A stretch of DNA of 64,000 bases. Source: Sulfitobacter albidus. Its GTDB lineage: Bacteria; Pseudomonadota; Alphaproteobacteria; Rhodobacterales; Rhodobacteraceae. The stretch lies in assembly GCF_018200035.1 (NCBI RefSeq), contig NZ_CP073581.1:988501-1052500 (forward strand). The letters run 5' to 3'. The notes under the pieces were generated by a model. The model worked only from the letters and a program-made list of their open reading frames with translations. It ran no database searches and was not told the origin of the DNA. Shown here in pieces: positions 38,394 to 63,116 of this stretch (position 1 is its first letter; each line of letters opens with the position of its first letter). The position numbers and the translations under genes are program-made.

Positions 38394-41300
38394 ATGGGGG
38401 ATGATCGACCAGTCGGCGGCGGTGTAGTGATCCGGCTGGTCTCCTGCCTGGGGGCGGCGCTTGATCTGGATATGCTGCCGCATTTCCTTGCGCATTACGC
38501 GTCGATCGGGATCGCGCCCGAGAATATGCACATCATCCTTCAGGGCACGTCCGAGGATGGCGACGACATTCTGCGCGCCGCGACTGTCTTGCGGTCTTTT
38601 GGCGCCGCACCCCCCAAACGCTGGATCGGCGACTACACAAGCGATGCGATGTGGGCGCAGCGGCGGGCGTTGCAAGAGGAGGTCGCAGGCCCCGCTGACT
38701 GGATCGTCAATTCCGACATCGATGAGCATTATCACTTTCCGGCACCGCTCGCCGACGTCGTGGCCCATTGCCTGCAGATTGGTGTGAACTGTGTGCAAGG
38801 GCTCCAGATTGATCGCTTTGCGCCGAATGGCGTTCTGGCTGCGGTTCGGGAGTCACCGTCCCAGGCTGCGCAGTTCCCGATCGAGGGCGAGGCGTCGTTT
38901 CATATCTTTGGCACGGGCAAACATCACGGAATCTCGGCCACCACCAAACTGATGCTGCACAGCGCGCAGGTATTCCCGCGTCGCGGTGGCCACAATCCCG
39001 AAGGCATCATCGCAGATGCCGCCGAAGGCAAACGGGGCGTCGTGCCGCGGTTTCTGGCCGGACGCCCGCTGCACCAGATCGCGGCGATTGCCGATCCGGC
39101 CTATCGCTTTGCCTTTCCCTTCACCAGCGCGCATTTCAAATGGACGGCGAGCCGGATACCGTCCGTGCGCAAGCGCATCGCGACCGACGGTGTCAGCCCG
39201 GCGGGCGAGGAATACGGCGGCAAGATCCTCGAATATCTCGGCGAACACGGCAGGATGCCGCTGGAGAACGTCGCCCTGAAAGACGGAGCAGGGGCGCCCG
39301 CAGGGGGATGGCGCAAACAGATGCGGATCATGCGGGCCGAGGCATCCGCGATTGCCAATCCTGCCGCGTCCGGCGGTGACGTCTTTGTCGTCGTGCGCGC
39401 GGCGGGGGAGCGGACGCAGGCGCTTGCACAACACCTCGCCGCCGAGCAGGTGGGCGCGGCCAAGGTCGCGCTGCTGCGTGAAGTCCCCTTTGCGACCGCA
39501 ATCCGCAAGGCCTGCGAGCGTGGCACGCTGGCGGGCGCCAAATGGACGCTGTTTCTGGACGCCGACGTGCTGTTGCGCCCCGGCGCCATCGCCGATCTGG
39601 TGGCGCAGGCAAACCGTCAGGACGCGAATATCCTGGGGATCAGCGGTCAGGTCGCGGACCCGCTGCTGGGCCAGTGGCGCGTTGCAGGTCAACACCTGTA
39701 CCGGACGTCGCTCTTGCACCAGATCCTCGACACCTGCGATTTCGACCCGGCGCAAAGGCGTCCCGAATCCTACATCAAGCGGCAGATGAAAAATGCGGGC
39801 TCCCCCTGGATCGACTGCGATCTGCCGGTCGGGTTGCACGATGCCGAGCAAAGCTTTGTCGATATCTTCCGCAAGGTCGTGGTGCATTCGCGCAAACACG
39901 CCCGATTCATGGAATACGCGCGGGCGTACTGGGACCGCGAGGCGGCCCGTCAGCCTGATCTCAAGGTCGCGCTGCACGCGTTGGAGCGGCCCGAAGACAT
40001 CGCTCAGCTCCGCTTGCCGCGCGCGGAAGGCGCACGGAATGTGCGGATCGACCGGCGGGAATTCCCCGATGACATCGGCGCGTTTCTCACCCGGATCGGC
40101 TTGACCGAGAAAGCTCCTCTCCCCGTCACGGCACTGACATCGGCAGACGTCACGGCCCGGCTTGCTGCCTTTCGGGAAGCCCCCGAATGGCTCCGCGACA
40201 AGGCGGAGATCGAGGCAAGGCACGCCCAGCATCTGGCCTCGTTGGGCGATGGCGCGGGCGTTGCAAAGGCCGCACTGGATACGCCGCGTCTTTTGTCCTG
40301 CGTCGGCGTCGACGGTGTCAGCGATGCCAACAGTGATCTGCGGTTGCTGCCACATTTCGTGCGCCACTACCAAAGCCTTGGCGTGGCGCCCGCGCGTATG
40401 CATTTCATACTCAACGCGCGCACGGCGGAGAGCGCGTCACTTGCCGAGGCGCGCGCGTTTCTGGACGAGGCGGGCACAGCCGAGCCGGAGGTTTGGATCG
40501 GCGAGTATACCAGCGCGGAGATGTGGAAGCGCCGATCCGATTTGCAGATCAGGACGGCCTCGGCAGAGGATTGGATCCTGAATGCAGATGTGGACGAGTT
40601 TCATGACTATCCGTGCACCCTGAAGGAACTGACGACCTACTGCGCAATCCACCAGATCCGCTGCGTGCAGGGCCCGATGATCGACCGGATCAGCGCCGAT
40701 GGGTCGCTGCGCGCGGTCGCGGCGGACACGGATCTGGGCCAGCAGTTTCCCGTGGCGGCAGATGTCGGCATCGCCTTGGGAAAGACACCGGGGGCAGGGG
40801 ACGCGACGGGGACCATCAAGCTGATGTTGCACCGAGGCGATGTGCTGCCCACCCTTGGCGGGCATCACCCTAAGGATCTTGCGCCCCGGCACCATCTCTA
40901 CGGCATGCCGCTCACCGAATTTCCGCGGATCAAGGCATCGGCATTTCGGGCGCATCTGCCGTTCCGTGTGTGGCACTACAAATGGACAGACGGGCTTGCG
41001 GGCTCGCTCGAGCGGCGGCGCGCAGCACCCGGTGCCAGCCCCGCAGGATCACGCTACGGCGGCAGGATCCTTGCGTATCTCGAAAAAAACGGGGGCCGGA
41101 TCGCGCTGGATGATCTGACGCGCGTGCCGCTCAGGCGCCCCGGTATCGCGGAAAGCTGGCAGGCCCGCATCGCGCAGCTGTCGCAGGCCGCGGCGCTGCT
41201 GCGCAGCCGCTCCGACCGCGCAAACCGTTACCGGGTGACGCGCGGGGCGTGGGATGCAACCACGGCCGACGGCTGGACGGTCAGACAGCTGACCTTTGGC

Positions 41301-42476
41301 AGCGGCGCCGGGCAGTATCACGCCCACAGCTATTACGACATCCCGATCCTGAACGATGACGCAACGCGCATCGCCGCCTACCGGATGAATTTTGAAGGGC
41401 GCTGGATGACCTCCGAGGATGCCGTGCAGATCGGTATCGTCGATGTGGCGCAGGGCGGGTTTGTGCCCATCGGGATCAGCCGCGCCTGGAGTTGGCAGCA
41501 GGGTCCGATGGCGCAGTGGCTGCCGGGTGGTCAGCGCATGGTCTGGAACGACCGCATTCCCGCCACCCAGGGCGATGGTAATGACGGGGACAGGTTCGTT
41601 GCGCGTATCTTCGATCTGGAAAGCGGACGCACGCGAACGATTGCGCGTCCCATCTATGCGCTGTCACCGGACGGGCACAGCGCGCTTTCGGTCAATATGG
41701 CCCGGCTCGACGCGGCCCGACCGGGATACGGGTATACCGGCGGGGCCGGTGCCGGGCTGGACGTCGGCGCGCCGCAGGATGACGGCATGTGGCGGCTTGA
41801 TCTGAGGATACGGGACGGGGCGCCGCAGCTGATCTTGCCGCTGGCGCGGGCGGTTGCGTTCCTGGCCGAACAGCTGCCGGAGGAAGAGCGTGCGGTACAT
41901 CTGTCAGGCGCATACGTGCATTGGTTCAACCACGTGAAGATTTCGCCCGACGGCCGTCGCTTTACGGCCAAGCTGCGGTGGCGCGATGCGGATCTGAAAG
42001 GCGGCTGGAGCGGCCTTATGGGCGTCAGCGTTACGTGCAATATGGATGGTACGGAGCTTGCGCTGCTCGAACGGGGGACAAGCCACGTGATGTGGCTGGA
42101 TGATGAGCGGCTCTATTTCTGGCATCAGGCCGAAAAATGCTTTGCCATGATCCGCGATGCGGTACCTCGGGGGCGTGAAAAAACGACACCGTTTCCTGAC
42201 ACCATCACCGCGAATGTCCACTTTCGGCACATTCCCGACGACCCCGATCAGGCCATTTACGATACCCCCTACGCCGAGGAAATCGATATTATCCAGATCG
42301 ACCAGACGACGGGGCAGACCAACAGGTTGGCCCGGTTCACCGGCCACGTCCCGCATCACGGGCCCTTCCGCTGCGACTTGCACCCGGTTCCGTCGAGGGA
42401 TGGCCGACGCATTGTCGTGACCTCTTTGCAGGACGGCGGGCGCCAGTTGTATCTTCTCGAACGGACAGACACATGA
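38394..42476 (+). CDS. giant multidomain glycosyltransferase-like protein with C-terminal beta-propeller
   Basis: The 1360-residue protein has four parts. Residues about 12-310 form a GT92/GT2-like domain with DxD in NSDIDEH (108-110). Residues about 330-560 form a distinct GT-A-like domain with FLDADVLLRPGA (DAD 389-391). Residues about 630-910 repeat the first domain, with DVD 732-734 and parallel blocks (RLLSC, WIGEYTSAEMW, TKLML/IKLML, HYKWT/HFKWT). Residues about 940-1360 look like a beta-propeller (YDIPILNDDATRIAAYRM, AQWLPGGQRMVWND, VKISPDGRRFTAKL). No signal peptide or membrane segment is evident. The substrate is unknown; a role in surface polysaccharide is inferred. It overlaps the next gene by four bases. 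GTG 38427 is an alternative start. Confidence 0.8.
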   Translation: MGDDRPVGGGVVIRLVSCLGAALDLDMLPHFLAHYASIGIAPENMHIILQGTSEDGDDILRAATVLRSFGAAPPKRWIGDYTSDAMWAQRRALQEEVAGPADWIVNSDIDEHYHFPAPLADVVAHCLQIGVNCVQGLQIDRFAPNGVLAAVRESPSQAAQFPIEGEASFHIFGTGKHHGISATTKLMLHSAQVFPRRGGHNPEGIIADAAEGKRGVVPRFLAGRPLHQIAAIADPAYRFAFPFTSAHFKWTASRIPSVRKRIATDGVSPAGEEYGGKILEYLGEHGRMPLENVALKDGAGAPAGGWRKQMRIMRAEASAIANPAASGGDVFVVVRAAGERTQALAQHLAAEQVGAAKVALLREVPFATAIRKACERGTLAGAKWTLFLDADVLLRPGAIADLVAQANRQDANILGISGQVADPLLGQWRVAGQHLYRTSLLHQILDTCDFDPAQRRPESYIKRQMKNAGSPWIDCDLPVGLHDAEQSFVDIFRKVVVHSRKHARFMEYARAYWDREAARQPDLKVALHALERPEDIAQLRLPRAEGARNVRIDRREFPDDIGAFLTRIGLTEKAPLPVTALTSADVTARLAAFREAPEWLRDKAEIEARHAQHLASLGDGAGVAKAALDTPRLLSCVGVDGVSDANSDLRLLPHFVRHYQSLGVAPARMHFILNARTAESASLAEARAFLDEAGTAEPEVWIGEYTSAEMWKRRSDLQIRTASAEDWILNADVDEFHDYPCTLKELTTYCAIHQIRCVQGPMIDRISADGSLRAVAADTDLGQQFPVAADVGIALGKTPGAGDATGTIKLMLHRGDVLPTLGGHHPKDLAPRHHLYGMPLTEFPRIKASAFRAHLPFRVWHYKWTDGLAGSLERRRAAPGASPAGSRYGGRILAYLEKNGGRIALDDLTRVPLRRPGIAESWQARIAQLSQAAALLRSRSDRANRYRVTRGAWDATTADGWTVRQLTFGSGAGQYHAHSYYDIPILNDDATRIAAYRMNFEGRWMTSEDAVQIGIVDVAQGGFVPIGISRAWSWQQGPMAQWLPGGQRMVWNDRIPATQGDGNDGDRFVARIFDLESGRTRTIARPIYALSPDGHSALSVNMARLDAARPGYGYTGGAGAGLDVGAPQDDGMWRLDLRIRDGAPQLILPLARAVAFLAEQLPEEERAVHLSGAYVHWFNHVKISPDGRRFTAKLRWRDADLKGGWSGLMGVSVTCNMDGTELALLERGTSHVMWLDDERLYFWHQAEKCFAMIRDAVPRGREKTTPFPDTITANVHFRHIPDDPDQAIYDTPYAEEIDIIQIDQTTGQTNRLARFTGHVPHHGPFRCDLHPVPSRDGRRIVVTSLQDGGRQLYLLERTDT

Positions 42477-44806
42477 GCCAGCGCACGCAGAAATACCCGC
42501 TGGTGATGACAATCCTGGTGCGTGACGAGGCCGATATCATCGGGCAGAATATCGCCTTTCACCTCGATCAGGGGGTCGACCATATCATCGTGATGGACAA
42601 CGGCTCTGTCGATGGCACGCGCGCCGTGCTTGAACCTTTTGCCGCAGACCGGAAAATCACGATCCTCGACGAGCCGTCGCAAGACTACCTTCAGGACGTC
42701 TGGATGACCCGGATGGCCGTCATGGCCCGCGAGACTTTCGGCGCGGAGTGGATCATCTGCAACGACGCGGATGAATTCTGGTGGTCGCCGACCGGCAATC
42801 TCAAGGACGCCCTGCCACCCCTAGATGGTCACGAGACGATGCTGACCTGCGTGCGTCATCAGATGATCGGCCCGCGCGATGCGCTTGACCACACCGATTG
42901 GCGGCAGGCACTGACCTACCGGCCGGCAACGCCGCCGACCTTTCCCGAAATTCCGAATGATCTGGTCGGCATCGCCGAACTGGAGCTCGACCACCCGCTC
43001 TTCTACTATCAGCTACATGGAAAAATGATTTTCCCTGCGCAGGGGCTGCAATATGTCGTGCGCGGTGCACATACCGGGCACTACGATCGCACATTGCCAA
43101 ATCCTGCGGCTTGCGAAGTGGAAATCTTTCATTTTCCGATCCGGTCGCGCGTCGAGCTGCAACGCTCTGTGCAGCGCATCGAAAGTGCGGTCGCGCGCAC
43201 GCCCGGCGTGGCCATCCAGACATCGTGGAAATACCGGCGCTGGCAATACATGGCCGAACGTGCCAATTCGATCTGGCCTGCTTTCTGTGACGCCCTGCCT
43301 GACCGCAAGCGGGTCATGCGGGATCTGGCAAATGGATATCTGGTCGAGGAGCCCGTGATCCTGCAACTGCTCGACCGGATCATGCCGCAGCCGACCGCCG
43401 ACACAGTATCGCCCGAAGCCGCGCCGCCGGTCCCTTTGCTTCAGGACAACACCGTCGGAGATCTGGTGCTGGTCATGGGCGCCGAAGAGAATGCGGCAAA
43501 CACAGTCGCGGACTTTCTGCAAAAGCTGGGCGCCCCCGGCGGGCGCCCCGATGCGGGGCCTTCTGATCTGCTTTTGGATGCGCACCGCGCGATCCTGTCC
43601 GAGATGGAGCGCGCCGCGTTGGATTTCCGGGATCCGCCGCCGGAATGGTTCAAGGGGACATCGGCCAAATCATGGCATGTGACGGTGATGGAATTGCTCT
43701 TGGCCCAGCACGCCGATCTTGATTTTGCGGTCTTGTGCGACCCAACCCTGGACGCGCTGTTGCCGCTGTGGCGCGATGTGGCAAAGGCGAACTATCTCGG
43801 CCTTCACGTGGCACTGGTTCTGGATAACCCGCTGACCGCCGCAAAAAGGATCCAACAGCAAATGGGTATCCCCGTCGAGGTTGGGGCGCTCCTGTGGGCG
43901 CGACGTATAATCCGTATGGAGCGCGAGAGCCGTGATCTGCCGCGCCACATCGTTGAGATTGCGGACATGACCAGTGACTGGGAAGCCGCTGCAGATAGAT
44001 TCCTGCGCGCGATCAAGCCACAGTGGCCGCGTGCGCACCGGGCCGACGGTGACGATATCAATGCCGCGCTTCAAGGCTCCGTTGCCGCATTTGCGCACTC
44101 GGAAGCTGACGTGATGCATGCCGCGCAAGTCCCCGACGTCGTGAAGGAAACCTATGACGTTCTGCGCGCGCTTGCGGTCAATGACCGGATGCCTGAGCTG
44201 CACGCGCGGCTTTCAAGCATCGCTAAAGAGATCGAGCGTACGACACGCTATCTGCACCATGTTCTGGGAACGGCCAAACTGGCGAGGGACGCGGGCCTGT
44301 CGATCGCGCACCCTAGCCCCCTCAATCGCTCACAGGCGCAAATCGACCGCCTGACGCTGCCGGTCGTCAGCGCCGAGAGCACCGTCCAACCGGTCAAGGA
44401 CGACAGCCCGTCCATGACACGGCGTGAGCTGCTGGATAAATCGCGCGCACGCTTGCTCGAAAAGGATACGCACGGCGTGCGAGGCACCTTCGACAAGAAC
44501 GCCAAGGGTTTACCCAAAACCTCCGCAATCCTGATCGCCGCGATCAAGGACGCGCCCGAATTCGATCCTGCGTGGTACCAGACCACTTACCCGGATGTGG
44601 CCGAAAGCGGGGCCGATCCGGCCTTGCACTACCTGCATGTCGGCGCGTTTGAGTGCCGCAATCCGGGGCCGGATTTTGACACGCTACGCTATTACGAGGC
44701 CAATCCGGACGTCTTGGAGGCAGGCATGTTTGCGTTCATCCATTTCATCCGGTTCGGGCGCGCGGGAAATCGCGCAATTTTCCCGGCGGAACCGTTGCCG
44801 GGCTAA
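42473..44806 (+). CDS. glycosyltransferase / sulfotransferase-like / repeat protein
   Basis: The 777-residue protein starts with a GT2-like domain (PLVMTILVRDEADIIGQNIA; CNDADEFWW as DxD). The middle (about 320-530) recalls sulfotransferase folds: LVLVMGAEENAANTVADFLQ in place of the usual PAPS loop, and LVLDNPLTAAKRIQQQMGIPVEVGALLWARRI as in bacterial sulfotransferases; the missing PAPS motif argues that it may be inactive. A charged helical region follows, then two FDPAWYQTTYPDVAESGADPALHYLHVG-type repeats often attached to glycosyltransferases. Its ATG overlaps the stop of the giant gene (ATGA), so they act together. Confidence 0.78.
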   Translation: MSQRTQKYPLVMTILVRDEADIIGQNIAFHLDQGVDHIIVMDNGSVDGTRAVLEPFAADRKITILDEPSQDYLQDVWMTRMAVMARETFGAEWIICNDADEFWWSPTGNLKDALPPLDGHETMLTCVRHQMIGPRDALDHTDWRQALTYRPATPPTFPEIPNDLVGIAELELDHPLFYYQLHGKMIFPAQGLQYVVRGAHTGHYDRTLPNPAACEVEIFHFPIRSRVELQRSVQRIESAVARTPGVAIQTSWKYRRWQYMAERANSIWPAFCDALPDRKRVMRDLANGYLVEEPVILQLLDRIMPQPTADTVSPEAAPPVPLLQDNTVGDLVLVMGAEENAANTVADFLQKLGAPGGRPDAGPSDLLLDAHRAILSEMERAALDFRDPPPEWFKGTSAKSWHVTVMELLLAQHADLDFAVLCDPTLDALLPLWRDVAKANYLGLHVALVLDNPLTAAKRIQQQMGIPVEVGALLWARRIIRMERESRDLPRHIVEIADMTSDWEAAADRFLRAIKPQWPRAHRADGDDINAALQGSVAAFAHSEADVMHAAQVPDVVKETYDVLRALAVNDRMPELHARLSSIAKEIERTTRYLHHVLGTAKLARDAGLSIAHPSPLNRSQAQIDRLTLPVVSAESTVQPVKDDSPSMTRRELLDKSRARLLEKDTHGVRGTFDKNAKGLPKTSAILIAAIKDAPEFDPAWYQTTYPDVAESGADPALHYLHVGAFECRNPGPDFDTLRYYEANPDVLEAGMFAFIHFIRFGRAGNRAIFPAEPLPG

Positions 44807-59125: not shown

Positions 59126-59390
59126 TAATTGCCTGTGTCAATACTTCTCAGGGCTGGCCCTGCGAGCGGCGCGCAGCGGGCCGCGTTCGTCTGTCTTTCG
59201 CGCCTTCAAAAGGGCCTCGGATGACATCGTGCCGCGTGACGGTCGATGGCGAACGCCGACACCCAATCGCAGCACACTGCGGCTGGTGGAGGGGGGCGAA
59301 GTCTTGATCCAGAACTTCGACCTTTGATATTCTGGGATTCGAAGTTGCGGCTTATTGATGCGCAAGGCTTTTTTGAGGAGGAATTTTCCA

Positions 59391-62300
59391 ATGCCAACTT
59401 TCACGCTTTCGGGTTTTCAGGTTAATCGTGACGTCCCAGATCCGGTAACGGGCGACGCCGATGCGATCGCAATCAATCCCGTCGACCTGAACGTCGTGGT
59501 GCCCGATGGTCAGGAGTTCCTCACCTACAGTGTGGTAGAGACTTTGCCGGACGGCATCCCGCGGGTCGACATCACGTCGAGCGATATCTCGGTCACGGGA
59601 ACGGGCCCCGGCATCCCCGGGGGCACGGCAAGCCTGCCGGAAGATACTATCGATTTCCTGGGTTTCGTGGAATCCTCCGAGGGGGTCCATATTCTGCTGA
59701 ACATCGAATTGCCGCAGGAGGACGGCAGCCGGATTGATCTGATTTTCCAGATCGGCGGCGCCGCGCTGACGATACCGACGTCATTGCCGGAATTCGAAGC
59801 CCTGGAATCCTCGATCGATTTCATCGGTAATTTTGGAACGGCGACAGGCGCATTCGCGCCCGGTGTGTCGATTGACTTCAACAGCTTTGCAAACACCACG
59901 GTCGATCCGAACCCCACCATAACGGGGACCCCGGGGGACGATTTCCTGTCCGGGACTGCCGGGAACGACTACATCGCAACGGGCAATGCGACCTCGGATG
60001 GCGATCAGGTCGTAGGCTCGGCCGGCAATGATACCATCGACATGTTCGGCAACGACGGCGTGAACGGGTTCATTTCCCTCGATTACAGCGGGCTGGCCGG
60101 TCCTGTGACCGTCAACATCGATGGGGATGCGAATACCGGCAGCGTGGTCAAGGGCAGCGGCACCGATACGCTGCTCGGTGTTGTGCAGCCGCTCAACGCC
60201 GGCTTTGAAAACGGCGGCCTTGGGGTTGTCGGGACGGCGTCGGGCGACACGTTCATTCTGGCACCCGAAGGGGAGCAATGGATGTCGGTGCGCGGCGGCG
60301 ACGGTGCCGACAGCTATACGATCAACGGCACGGGCCTTGTCCGGCTTGATTTCAGGGATGCATCGCAGGGCATCGACGTCAATCTTGGCACCGGTACGAT
60401 CGCGAACGATGGGTTTGGCAACGCCGAGACGATTGGCGGCGCGGGCGCGGTCTGGGAGGTGCGGGGCTCGTCTCAGAACGACACGTTTGTCGGATCGAGC
60501 AATGACGAATCCTTTCGCGACTTCGGCGGCAACAATGACCTCGATGGGGGAGCGGGCTTTGACAGGCTGCGCTACGATTCGGGCCGCACCTTTGGCGTAA
60601 ACATCGATGCCGAGGCCGGTGTCGTCAGCGGGCTGCGCTTTAATCCACTGTCACAGCACGGTCAGATTTTCACCGACACGATCTCGGGGTTTGAACACCT
60701 GCGCGGCTCAAATTCGGATGACCGGATCGTCTCGGAAGCGGGTGTCGGGAACCTGCTGCAAGGCCGCAGGGGTTCGGATATCTTTGTCCATACCGGCGGG
60801 GCGGATACGATTGGCGATTTCGATGCCTCGACCGAAACGCTTCAGGTGCGTGTGGCCGGGTTGACCCAGGCCGGATTCGACTTTGCGCTCGATAACAACG
60901 TATCCGAGGGCCCCAATGGCGTTCTGGTGAATTTCGGCGGCGGGTCATCGGTGCTTTTCGCGGGCAGGACGCTTGCGGATTTGTCAGACGCCGACGTGCA
61001 ATTCATTGACCCCGCAGCGACAAATCTGTTCCAAGGCACCGAGGGCGACAACAGGTTCTTTGGCTCCGCCGCGGGCGAGACGTTTCTTGGCCTTGCCGGC
61101 AACGACGATATCTGGGGCGGCGGTGGCAGTGACTACATCAATCCCGGAGAGAATGCGGGCGGAGACAGCGGCTTTGACTTCATCCAGACCGGCTCTGGCA
61201 ACGATACCGTGGATATGGGCGATATCGTCAACGGCTTTGTCGAACTGGATTACAGCTTTCTCAACGGCACTGGCAACGCCATCGCGGTCGCGATCGACGG
61301 CGGCGCCAATACTGGCACCATCGGCAAGGGCGCGGCAGGCACCGATACCCTCGTGGATGTCGAAAACCCGCTGCTGTCCGGCTGGACAACGGGCGGGCTC
61401 GAAATCCGGGGCACGACGGGCAACGATACGTTTGACGTCTCGCCAGAGGGTGAACAATGGATGATTATCCGGCCCGGTGACGGGGTGGATACGATCATCA
61501 TCAACGCAAACAGCACGACACGTGTCGACGTCGATGATCCCGTCGGGGCGGTGCGCATCGACATGCGCGATGGCAACGGGATCAATGTCAATCTCGCGAC
61601 CCGCACGATTGCAGATGACGGATTTGGCAACGCCGAGACCATCGGCGGCACCGGCCCGGTCTGGGAGGTGCGCGGCACCGCCGGCGATGATGTTTTTGTC
61701 GGGTCGAGCAACGCCGAGTCCTTCCGCTCGAACGGCGGAAACGACATGCTGGACGGCGGGACAGGTTTTGACCGCTTGCGGTACGACGGGCCGATCCAAT
61801 CGGTAGACATCAACGCCGCGACCGGCGTTGCGACAGGGGTGCTCGGATCCGGCGGTTCCTTCACGGATGCGATCTCGGGATTTGAATGGTTCCGGGGCAC
61901 GCAGGGAAATGACACCTTCATCGGTGCGGGGCAGAGCGAGCTTTTCGAAGGCGGTCAGGGCAATGACGCTGTGTCCGGCGCCGGTGGGGCGGATACGGTT
62001 TACGGCGATGGGGGCAATGACACCCTTTCGGGCAATGGCGGCTTTGACGAGGTGTACGGCGATGCGGGCAACGACATCGTCGGCGGGGAGGCTGGCAACG
62101 ACAGTCTGTTCGGCGGGGAGGGCGATGACAGGCTCTTCGGCGGCTCTGGCAATGACATGCTGAATGGCGGCAGCGGCAACGACGAACTGAACGGCGGCGG
62201 AAATTTCGACACGGCTGATTATTCCGATGCCACGCAGAGCCTTGTTGTCAATATCAACTTCGCGGGGGATCAGACCGTTTCCGCCCAGATGGGCACGGAC

Positions 62301-63116
62301 CGTTTTGTCTCCATCGAGGGGATCCTTGGCGGCTCCGGAAATGACCTTTTGGTCGGCAACGCGGCGGGCAATGTGATCGACGGTGGCGCAGGCAATGATC
62401 AGATCTACGGCATCGGCGCTGGCGACGTCTTGCGGGGCGGGAGCGGCAACGACCTGATCGAAGGCTCCGGCGGCAATGACAGCATGGATGGCGGCGCCGG
62501 TGACGCCGATATCATCAGCTACTTCAATTCCGGGGGCGGGGTAACGGTAAACCTGCGTTTGCAAGGCACAGCGCAGGCCGTCGGCGGCTCCTCGGGCGTG
62601 GACACGTTCGAAGGGTTTGAAAATATCTACGGCTCGAACGTCGGCGGTGACGTGCTCGTGGGGGATGACAATGACAACATCGTTCTGGGCTTTGGCGGCA
62701 ATGACCGTGTCTTCGGCTTCGGCGGTGATGACAACCTGATCGGGATGCAGGGGAACGACACGCTTGCCGGTGGCCGGGGGGCGGATAGCCTGAACGGGGG
62801 TAATGGATCGGACACGTTCGTGTTCAACGACGTCAGCCATTCCTTCTTTTCCGAGCGCGACACGATTGTCGATTTCGGCGTCGGCGGTGCAGACCGGGTT
62901 GATCTTTCTGTCATCGATGCAAACGCCAATACGGGCGGGAACCAGGCCTTCACCTTCATCGGGGCGGCTGGGTTCGGAGGTGCGGGCGATCTGCGTTTTG
63001 TTACCAACGGGACAAATGGTTTTGTTCTGGGCGATGTGGACGGGGATGGCGCGACCGACCTCAATATCCTGTTGCTCGGTGTGACCTCAATGACGGCGGC
63101 CGATTTCATCCTTTGA
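59391..63116 (+). CDS. RTX calcium-binding secreted protein with duplicated module
   Basis: The 1241-residue acidic Gly/Asp-rich protein has no signal peptide, as usual for type I secretion. Nonapeptide repeats GGxGNDxLx cluster at about residues 845-945, 980-1045 and 1085-1140 and bind calcium outside the cell. Two related modules of about 280 residues (about 180-450 and 550-845) share APEGEQWM/SPEGEQWM, DDGFGNAETIGG, VWEVRG and DGGAGFDRLRYD. The C-terminus resembles the serralysin/M10 C-terminal domain (SDTFVFNDV, DTIVDFGVGGADRVDLS). No protease motif is seen. GAGGAGG precedes ATG 59391. No type I exporter genes are in the window. Confidence 0.9.
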   Translation: MPTFTLSGFQVNRDVPDPVTGDADAIAINPVDLNVVVPDGQEFLTYSVVETLPDGIPRVDITSSDISVTGTGPGIPGGTASLPEDTIDFLGFVESSEGVHILLNIELPQEDGSRIDLIFQIGGAALTIPTSLPEFEALESSIDFIGNFGTATGAFAPGVSIDFNSFANTTVDPNPTITGTPGDDFLSGTAGNDYIATGNATSDGDQVVGSAGNDTIDMFGNDGVNGFISLDYSGLAGPVTVNIDGDANTGSVVKGSGTDTLLGVVQPLNAGFENGGLGVVGTASGDTFILAPEGEQWMSVRGGDGADSYTINGTGLVRLDFRDASQGIDVNLGTGTIANDGFGNAETIGGAGAVWEVRGSSQNDTFVGSSNDESFRDFGGNNDLDGGAGFDRLRYDSGRTFGVNIDAEAGVVSGLRFNPLSQHGQIFTDTISGFEHLRGSNSDDRIVSEAGVGNLLQGRRGSDIFVHTGGADTIGDFDASTETLQVRVAGLTQAGFDFALDNNVSEGPNGVLVNFGGGSSVLFAGRTLADLSDADVQFIDPAATNLFQGTEGDNRFFGSAAGETFLGLAGNDDIWGGGGSDYINPGENAGGDSGFDFIQTGSGNDTVDMGDIVNGFVELDYSFLNGTGNAIAVAIDGGANTGTIGKGAAGTDTLVDVENPLLSGWTTGGLEIRGTTGNDTFDVSPEGEQWMIIRPGDGVDTIIINANSTTRVDVDDPVGAVRIDMRDGNGINVNLATRTIADDGFGNAETIGGTGPVWEVRGTAGDDVFVGSSNAESFRSNGGNDMLDGGTGFDRLRYDGPIQSVDINAATGVATGVLGSGGSFTDAISGFEWFRGTQGNDTFIGAGQSELFEGGQGNDAVSGAGGADTVYGDGGNDTLSGNGGFDEVYGDAGNDIVGGEAGNDSLFGGEGDDRLFGGSGNDMLNGGSGNDELNGGGNFDTADYSDATQSLVVNINFAGDQTVSAQMGTDRFVSIEGILGGSGNDLLVGNAAGNVIDGGAGNDQIYGIGAGDVLRGGSGNDLIEGSGGNDSMDGGAGDADIISYFNSGGGVTVNLRLQGTAQAVGGSSGVDTFEGFENIYGSNVGGDVLVGDDNDNIVLGFGGNDRVFGFGGDDNLIGMQGNDTLAGGRGADSLNGGNGSDTFVFNDVSHSFFSERDTIVDFGVGGADRVDLSVIDANANTGGNQAFTFIGAAGFGGAGDLRFVTNGTNGFVLGDVDGDGATDLNILLLGVTSMTAADFIL

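Follow-up and report, generated by a model that had tools for sequence, protein, structure and literature searches.

The 64,000-nucleotide stretch of the Sulfitobacter albidus genome analyzed here (contig NZ_CP073581.1, positions 988,501 to 1,052,500; hereafter, the window) contains a forward-strand open reading frame of 1360 amino acids (aa) at positions 38394-42476, with an ATG start, in which three acidic motifs are followed by a C-terminal propeller. The motifs read DIDE at residues 108-111, DADV at 389-392, and DVDE at 732-735; an earlier, sequence-only reading had placed DxD or DAD motifs at 108-110, 389-391, and 732-734, and DID, DAD, and DVD are indeed read there. The gene probably, though far from certainly, encodes a multienzyme glycan-assembly protein whose propeller would bind or act on uronate. 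Its parts are as follows.

38394..42476, forward strand: fused gene (1360 aa) for a PF13704-type glycosyltransferase (GT) domain, a GT2-like domain, a second PF13704-type GT domain, and a propeller, in an order that recurs in relatives
38430..39278, forward strand: D1, PF13704-type GT, residues 13-295, with DIDE (108-111) at 38715-38726
39372..40217, forward strand: D2, divergent GT2-like domain, residues 327-608, with D389-A-D391 at 39558-39566 and a downstream GLHD (H482, D483)
40287..41135, forward strand: D3, PF13704-type GT, residues 632-914, with DVDE (732-735) at 40587-40598
41289..42464, forward strand: oligogalacturonate-lyase-like propeller, residues 966-1357, with conserved H1180, H1231, H1276, D1328, and H1330

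A search of 5.8 billion proteins with the whole protein, in which the best 7992 candidates were scored, returned 21 rows at E<=1e-5, the query itself among them; modules were assigned to the relatives by module hidden Markov models. The order D1-D2-D3-propeller, which the sequence-only reading had proposed looking for in other genomes, was found in P0002, P0003 (Palleronia aestuarii), and P0005 (Pseudoroseicyclus tamaricis), in fragment P0006, which is without most of D1, and at locus L028, where the D3 sequence nearly equals that in P0006. Because of this recurrence, a chance open frame at 38394-42476 is ruled out. Identity of the window domains to P0002-P0006 was 59 to 61% for D2, 56 to 62% for D3, and 67 to 71% for the propeller, and D1 was 63 to 64% identical in the four that retain it. 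P0004 (1687 aa) has a sulfotransferase domain between D2 and D3, P0007 (Limimaricola) reads D1-D3-propeller, and P0010, P0013, P0014, P0016, and P0017 consist of GT and propeller alone. A further eight proteins (P0008, P0009, P0011, P0012, P0015, and P0019-P0021; such proteins occur in Roseivivax, Histidinibacterium, and Pararhizobium, for example) share the GT-propeller core at 38 to 64% identity, but in these a sulfotransferase (PF13469) replaces D1-D2. The motif PRSG, presumably the sulfotransferase cofactor loop, was present in 11/13 sulfotransferase domains; motif counts here and below were drawn from sets of homology matches that include the window copy, so high values are partly expected. 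The two exceptions, P0018 and L064 (L064:8258-11155), carry a weak sulfotransferase match ahead of a full GT-propeller, and this stretch is probably a decayed module.

The distribution of the family is patchy. Matches were found in 3 of 98 own and related genomes (own included, the other two partial only), in 13 of 295 genomes at family level (E<=1e-10, counting the own genome and several distant propellers), in 7 of 385 at class level (1e-20, own included), and in the own genome only among 398 at phylum level (1e-60). Twelve regions were fetched, with genes called as longest open frames under a third-position guanine-plus-cytosine (GC) filter. Fused genes were present in five (L028, L029, L030, L031, and L034, the GT part of L034 being incomplete), and L036-L039 held distant propellers. 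In the remaining three, parts were encoded by consecutive genes: GT (317 aa), GT2, sulfotransferase, and propeller in L033; sulfotransferase, GT, and propeller in L035; and GT2, ABC (ATP-binding cassette) transporter, GT, propeller, and GT2 in L032. Modules of the fused chain are thus exchanged with neighboring genes, and since the parts occur side by side in L032, L033, and L035, the most plausible reading of the protein is that parts of an operon were fused, giving what looks like a sugar-chain assembly line in one piece.

The segment containing the propeller was modeled confidently (mean predicted local distance difference test score of 90.3 for residues 620-1360), and the nearest fold to the model was that of a pectin-degrading lyase (PDB 3pe7 and 3c5m), the oligogalacturonate lyase of family PL22. 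The earlier suggestion that the propeller recalls sugar-lyase or WD-like folds is in line with this predicted fold and with a profile match to 3pe7. No Pfam or NCBIfam model matched residues 966-1357; rows such as DPPIV_N and PD40 appeared below threshold in some members, and PF07676 was listed for a few. The PL22 model PF14583 matched neither the fused protein (hmmscan) nor any protein of the own genome, and 3 of 200 genomes of the phylum had a match. PL22 sequences were taken from this PF14583 search, and one of them matched 3pe7 and 3c5m closely in PDB. Kinship with the lyase was found with a wide propeller profile (A5; 17 rows, 24 to 54% identity to the first) and not with a narrow one. 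A5 aligned to PL22 in hhalign with 95% probability (E 4.1e-8, 194 columns) and, in a HMMER search of 177635 PDB sequences, returned 3pe7 first (E 1.7e-4), ahead of a WD-repeat protein (0.0064); the narrow profile (A3) gave PDB rows at chance level and a weak hhalign probability of 37%. The propeller is thus a relative of PL22 rather than a member. An Agl32-type C5-epimerase was rejected as a relative, Agl32 being predicted to be alpha-helical (PMC13308652).

In both the hhalign and HMMER alignments, H1231 pairs with H242 of 3pe7, which we take to be the lyase base, and H1276 pairs with H287, presumably a Mn ligand together with Q350, H353, and H355 (manganese appears in the PDB title of 3pe7). 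H1180 is also aligned with H192 by hhalign. At the last motif the registers differ: in hhalign, D1328 faces H353, H1330 faces H355, and Q350 falls in a gap, whereas in HMMER C1327 faces Q350, H1330 faces H353, and H355 is opposite a variable residue. By either register three histidines are retained at the five positions compared, and the remaining ligand positions are occupied by Asp and a gap or by Cys and a variable residue, so that the ligand set of the lyase is incomplete. At this motif IDPHP is read in a distant propeller (L068:7794-9155) encoded within a polysaccharide locus of a Pseudooceanicola algae plasmid; as this is intermediate between CDLHP of the window protein and THPHP of the lyase, we favor the hhalign register.

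The incomplete ligand set leaves a place for a different account, in which the GT assembly protein is the same but its propeller is a noncatalytic module that binds glycan, senses chain length, or serves as a scaffold for protein contacts. Propellers are commonly scaffolds, and a single WbbB chain combines polymerizing GTs with one that terminates the polymer (PMC9587256). Conservation, in contrast, is centered on the polar motifs that align with the lyase center. SHxxW, NxH (a loose pattern), and CDLHP occurred together in 141/143 propellers longer than 350 aa (3 of 146 were left out for length), both misses lacking CDLHP. H1180, H1231, H1276, D1328, and H1330, as well as C1327, were invariant in 17/17 rows of A5, down to 24% identity. 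The propeller is also the most conserved domain of the protein and exists alone: 772 relatives were found at E<=1e-5 among 7998 candidates scored, and among the 120 listed, proteins of ~390 aa, which match an isolated propeller in size, were common. We regard a noncatalytic propeller as possible but doubtful, and prefer a propeller that would act on uronate as well as bind it.

Both D1 and D3 are PF13704-type GT domains. The two are 38% identical over 288 columns (pairwise E 3e-65), and PF13704 (Glyco_tranf_2_4) matched the protein in two stretches with 51.9 bits in total, above the curated cutoff of 27.5, although the separate copies scored 24.0 (D1) and 27.2 bits (D3), each below it. PF01697 (GT92) gave no Pfam match to either at E<=10. 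Of the duplicated GT92-like domain claimed in the sequence-only reading, the homology of the copies therefore stands, while by Pfam PF13704 takes the place of GT92. Neither is the duplication a recent internal one. In a tree of 48 GT domains, a 100/99 branch separates 39 domains from a group made up of P0143 (a long branch), the L033 stand-alone GT, and the D1 domains; as the L033 GT sits among the D1 domains, the D1 label requires two changes on the tree. Since D1 groups with a stand-alone GT, it did not arise by recent copying of D3. DxD is the typical metal motif of such GTs, and DxDE was present in 47/48 GT domains longer than 200 aa (3 of 51 matches were left out for length), with P0143 as the sole miss. 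The D3 model is confident across most of the domain, and residues 11-110 of D1 are well modeled. Foldseek rows from viral proteins were named GT2 and "family 92 domain" and were ascribed to D3 by name and length.

Only PF13641 and PF00535 matched D2 in Pfam, both below threshold (PF00535, 19.3 bits against a cutoff of 23.3), but its predicted structure matched enzymes that we take to have the GT-A fold. DADV and GxHD were kept in 13/13 D2 domains. Five proteins of ~343 aa matched D2, three of them shown with D2 as their only module; on plasmids, a search for stand-alone D2 gave no match and one with D1-D2 gave a single match, the GT of a Palleronia plasmid. The interpretation given in the sequence-only reading, a processive or multi-step glycan builder with three GT-A-like domains, is partly supported. 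Given the weak PF13704 and GT2 fits and a D1 that is partly unmodeled, some of the GT domains could be inactive copies that serve as scaffold or for acceptor binding, with only one or two sugars added. Every full-length D1, D2, and D3 in proteins of this architecture nevertheless retains its DxD, and P0143, the only one of the 48 domains without DxDE, has a different architecture; we consider inactive copies rather unlikely. We infer that all three GTs are active, each on its donor sugar.

The fused gene overlaps a second gene by 4 bases.

42473..44806, forward strand: second gene (777 aa), with an N-terminal PF13704 GT

The C-terminal part of this protein carries repeats of the type YPDV...DPxxHY (WYxxxYPDV...DPAxHY), and the middle ~200 aa are without assignment; a broken sulfotransferase was rejected for this middle part (hhalign probability 0.9%). 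In L028, L029, and L030 the gene next after the fused one is a homologue over nearly the full length (40 to 44% identity), and the first part only occurs in L031 (34% over 463 columns) and on the Palleronia LCG004 plasmid (L064). The L034 sequence stops ~640 bases past the fused gene and is uninformative here.

Upstream of the fused gene lie genes for a nitrite/sulfite-reductase-type protein, ABC transporter parts, NMT1-type proteins, and an ANTAR regulator, which we take to serve nitrogen assimilation; downstream of the pair are a histidine kinase (sensor kinase), a solute-binding protein, and an AMP-binding enzyme. A 1253-aa frame with a TTG start at 59355-63116 of the window encodes RTX calcium-binding repeats and, by Pfam, a serralysin-type C terminus. 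The GC content of the fused gene (64.5%) is close to that of the window (63.1%), so the gene does not stand out as foreign by its composition, and promoter and terminator scans gave results no better than shuffled sequence. A phage or defense origin was rejected: the fused gene had no match in PADLOC or in phage records, 21 pattern matches in viral contigs yielded 0 confirmed, and PHROGs gave weak matches only. Searching the PDB sequences with the whole 1360-aa protein found no relative.

Fourteen propeller matches lie on plasmids, with surroundings taken from six, one of them unannotated. Around the fused-gene relative of the Palleronia LCG004 plasmid are sulfotransferases, UDP-galactopyranose mutase, phosphomannomutase, and mannose-1-phosphate guanylyltransferase. 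The distant propeller of the Pseudooceanicola algae plasmid (24.8% identity) adjoins a nucleotide sugar dehydrogenase, a sugar transferase, a pyruvyl transferase, an O-antigen ligase, and GalU. In the own genome, 15 PF13704 matches (3 in this operon), 3 PF13469 matches, and 2 nucleotide-sugar dehydrogenase matches were over cutoff, so that a uronate glycan is possible there. Elsewhere in that genome, G000:C1:2812000-2846000 (L051, L052, L053, L055, and L063) holds three sulfotransferase and two PF13704 matches, one of the latter in a 2028-aa frame; this may be an island for a sulfated polysaccharide, with a giant GT. In L066, L069, L039, and L047, tricarboxylate transporter genes adjoin distant propellers that carry HFFGYYNK-type motifs and are possibly catabolic enzymes without a Pfam model. 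That the window propeller is itself a catabolic or editing lyase that trims or recycles uronate oligosaccharides, its fusion to GTs being of little functional weight, is improbable: the nearest fold is a pectin-degrading lyase and distant members adjoin transporters and dehydrogenases, but the three close stand-alone propellers with known surroundings (L032, L033, and L035) adjoin a PF13704-type GT gene, two of them also a sulfotransferase gene, and the GT fusion recurs across several genera.

For the glycan-assembly protein we favor, the following course is the most likely. In the cytoplasm, its most likely place, D1, D2, and D3 would successively extend a single glycan held on a carrier, joined by the GT of the adjacent second gene, with a surface polysaccharide as the presumed product. 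Through a metal site the propeller would most likely bind a part of this glycan that contains uronic acid, and would act on it by C5-proton chemistry, either epimerization or elimination; a sulfotransferase domain would contribute in relatives. We prefer an epimerase to a lyase only because the close neighbors are biosynthetic.

Several observations weigh against this course. The propeller lacks part of the lyase ligand set, and the two alignments disagree over the last motif. The model is poor for D1 past residue ~139 and for the D1-D2 linker. Hydropathy averaged over 19 residues peaks at 1.69 (residues 7-25), just above the usual membrane threshold of 1.6, although in the model residues 13-20 form a strand of D1. 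The window copy stands apart from polysaccharide genes and has no sulfotransferase domain, and the search for second-gene homologues in the three split clusters yielded none beyond one chance-level row. As 12 of the 15 PF13704 matches lie elsewhere, the locus is not the only glycan maker of the genome, and the nucleotide-sugar dehydrogenase family was found in 13/14 control genomes. The surroundings of distant propellers have a catabolic look (genes for tricarboxylate transporters and GntR regulators in Pacificitalea and Thioclava, for dehydrogenases in Bradyrhizobium), and neighbors are known for a minority of the stand-alone propellers listed. The most specific version, a single-chain assembly line for a glycosaminoglycan-like uronate polysaccharide in which three GTs (plus a sulfotransferase in sister proteins) are coupled to a metal-dependent uronate C5-epimerase or lyase from an unrecognized propeller family akin to the PL22 fold, is unlikely.

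Chondroitin polymerase K4CP (PDB 2z86/2z87), which has two GT domains and is not known to have a propeller, gave the first Foldseek rows for the D1-D2 model, but at ~10% identity and a root mean square deviation of ~19 over the pair, suggesting a kinship of domains and not of arrangement. Multi-GT chains are already known: WbbB of Raoultella terrigena, a trifunctional O-antigen GT, likewise has three GT domains in one polypeptide and makes a surface glycan, but it is membrane anchored, begins with a GT99 3-deoxy-D-manno-octulosonic acid (Kdo) transferase, and has no propeller in the passages describing it (PMC9587256). In searches of open-licence papers, neither the GT-GT-GT-propeller order in one protein nor a PL22-like propeller in a synthesis protein was found. 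The fused protein joins sugar addition and possible uronate modification, with sulfation in relatives, which are usually the work of separate genes, and the fusion is natural evidence of which parts work together. Its propeller belongs to a sizeable family in which no Pfam or NCBIfam model was over cutoff in the members scanned, and whose conserved lyase-like center makes its chemistry testable.

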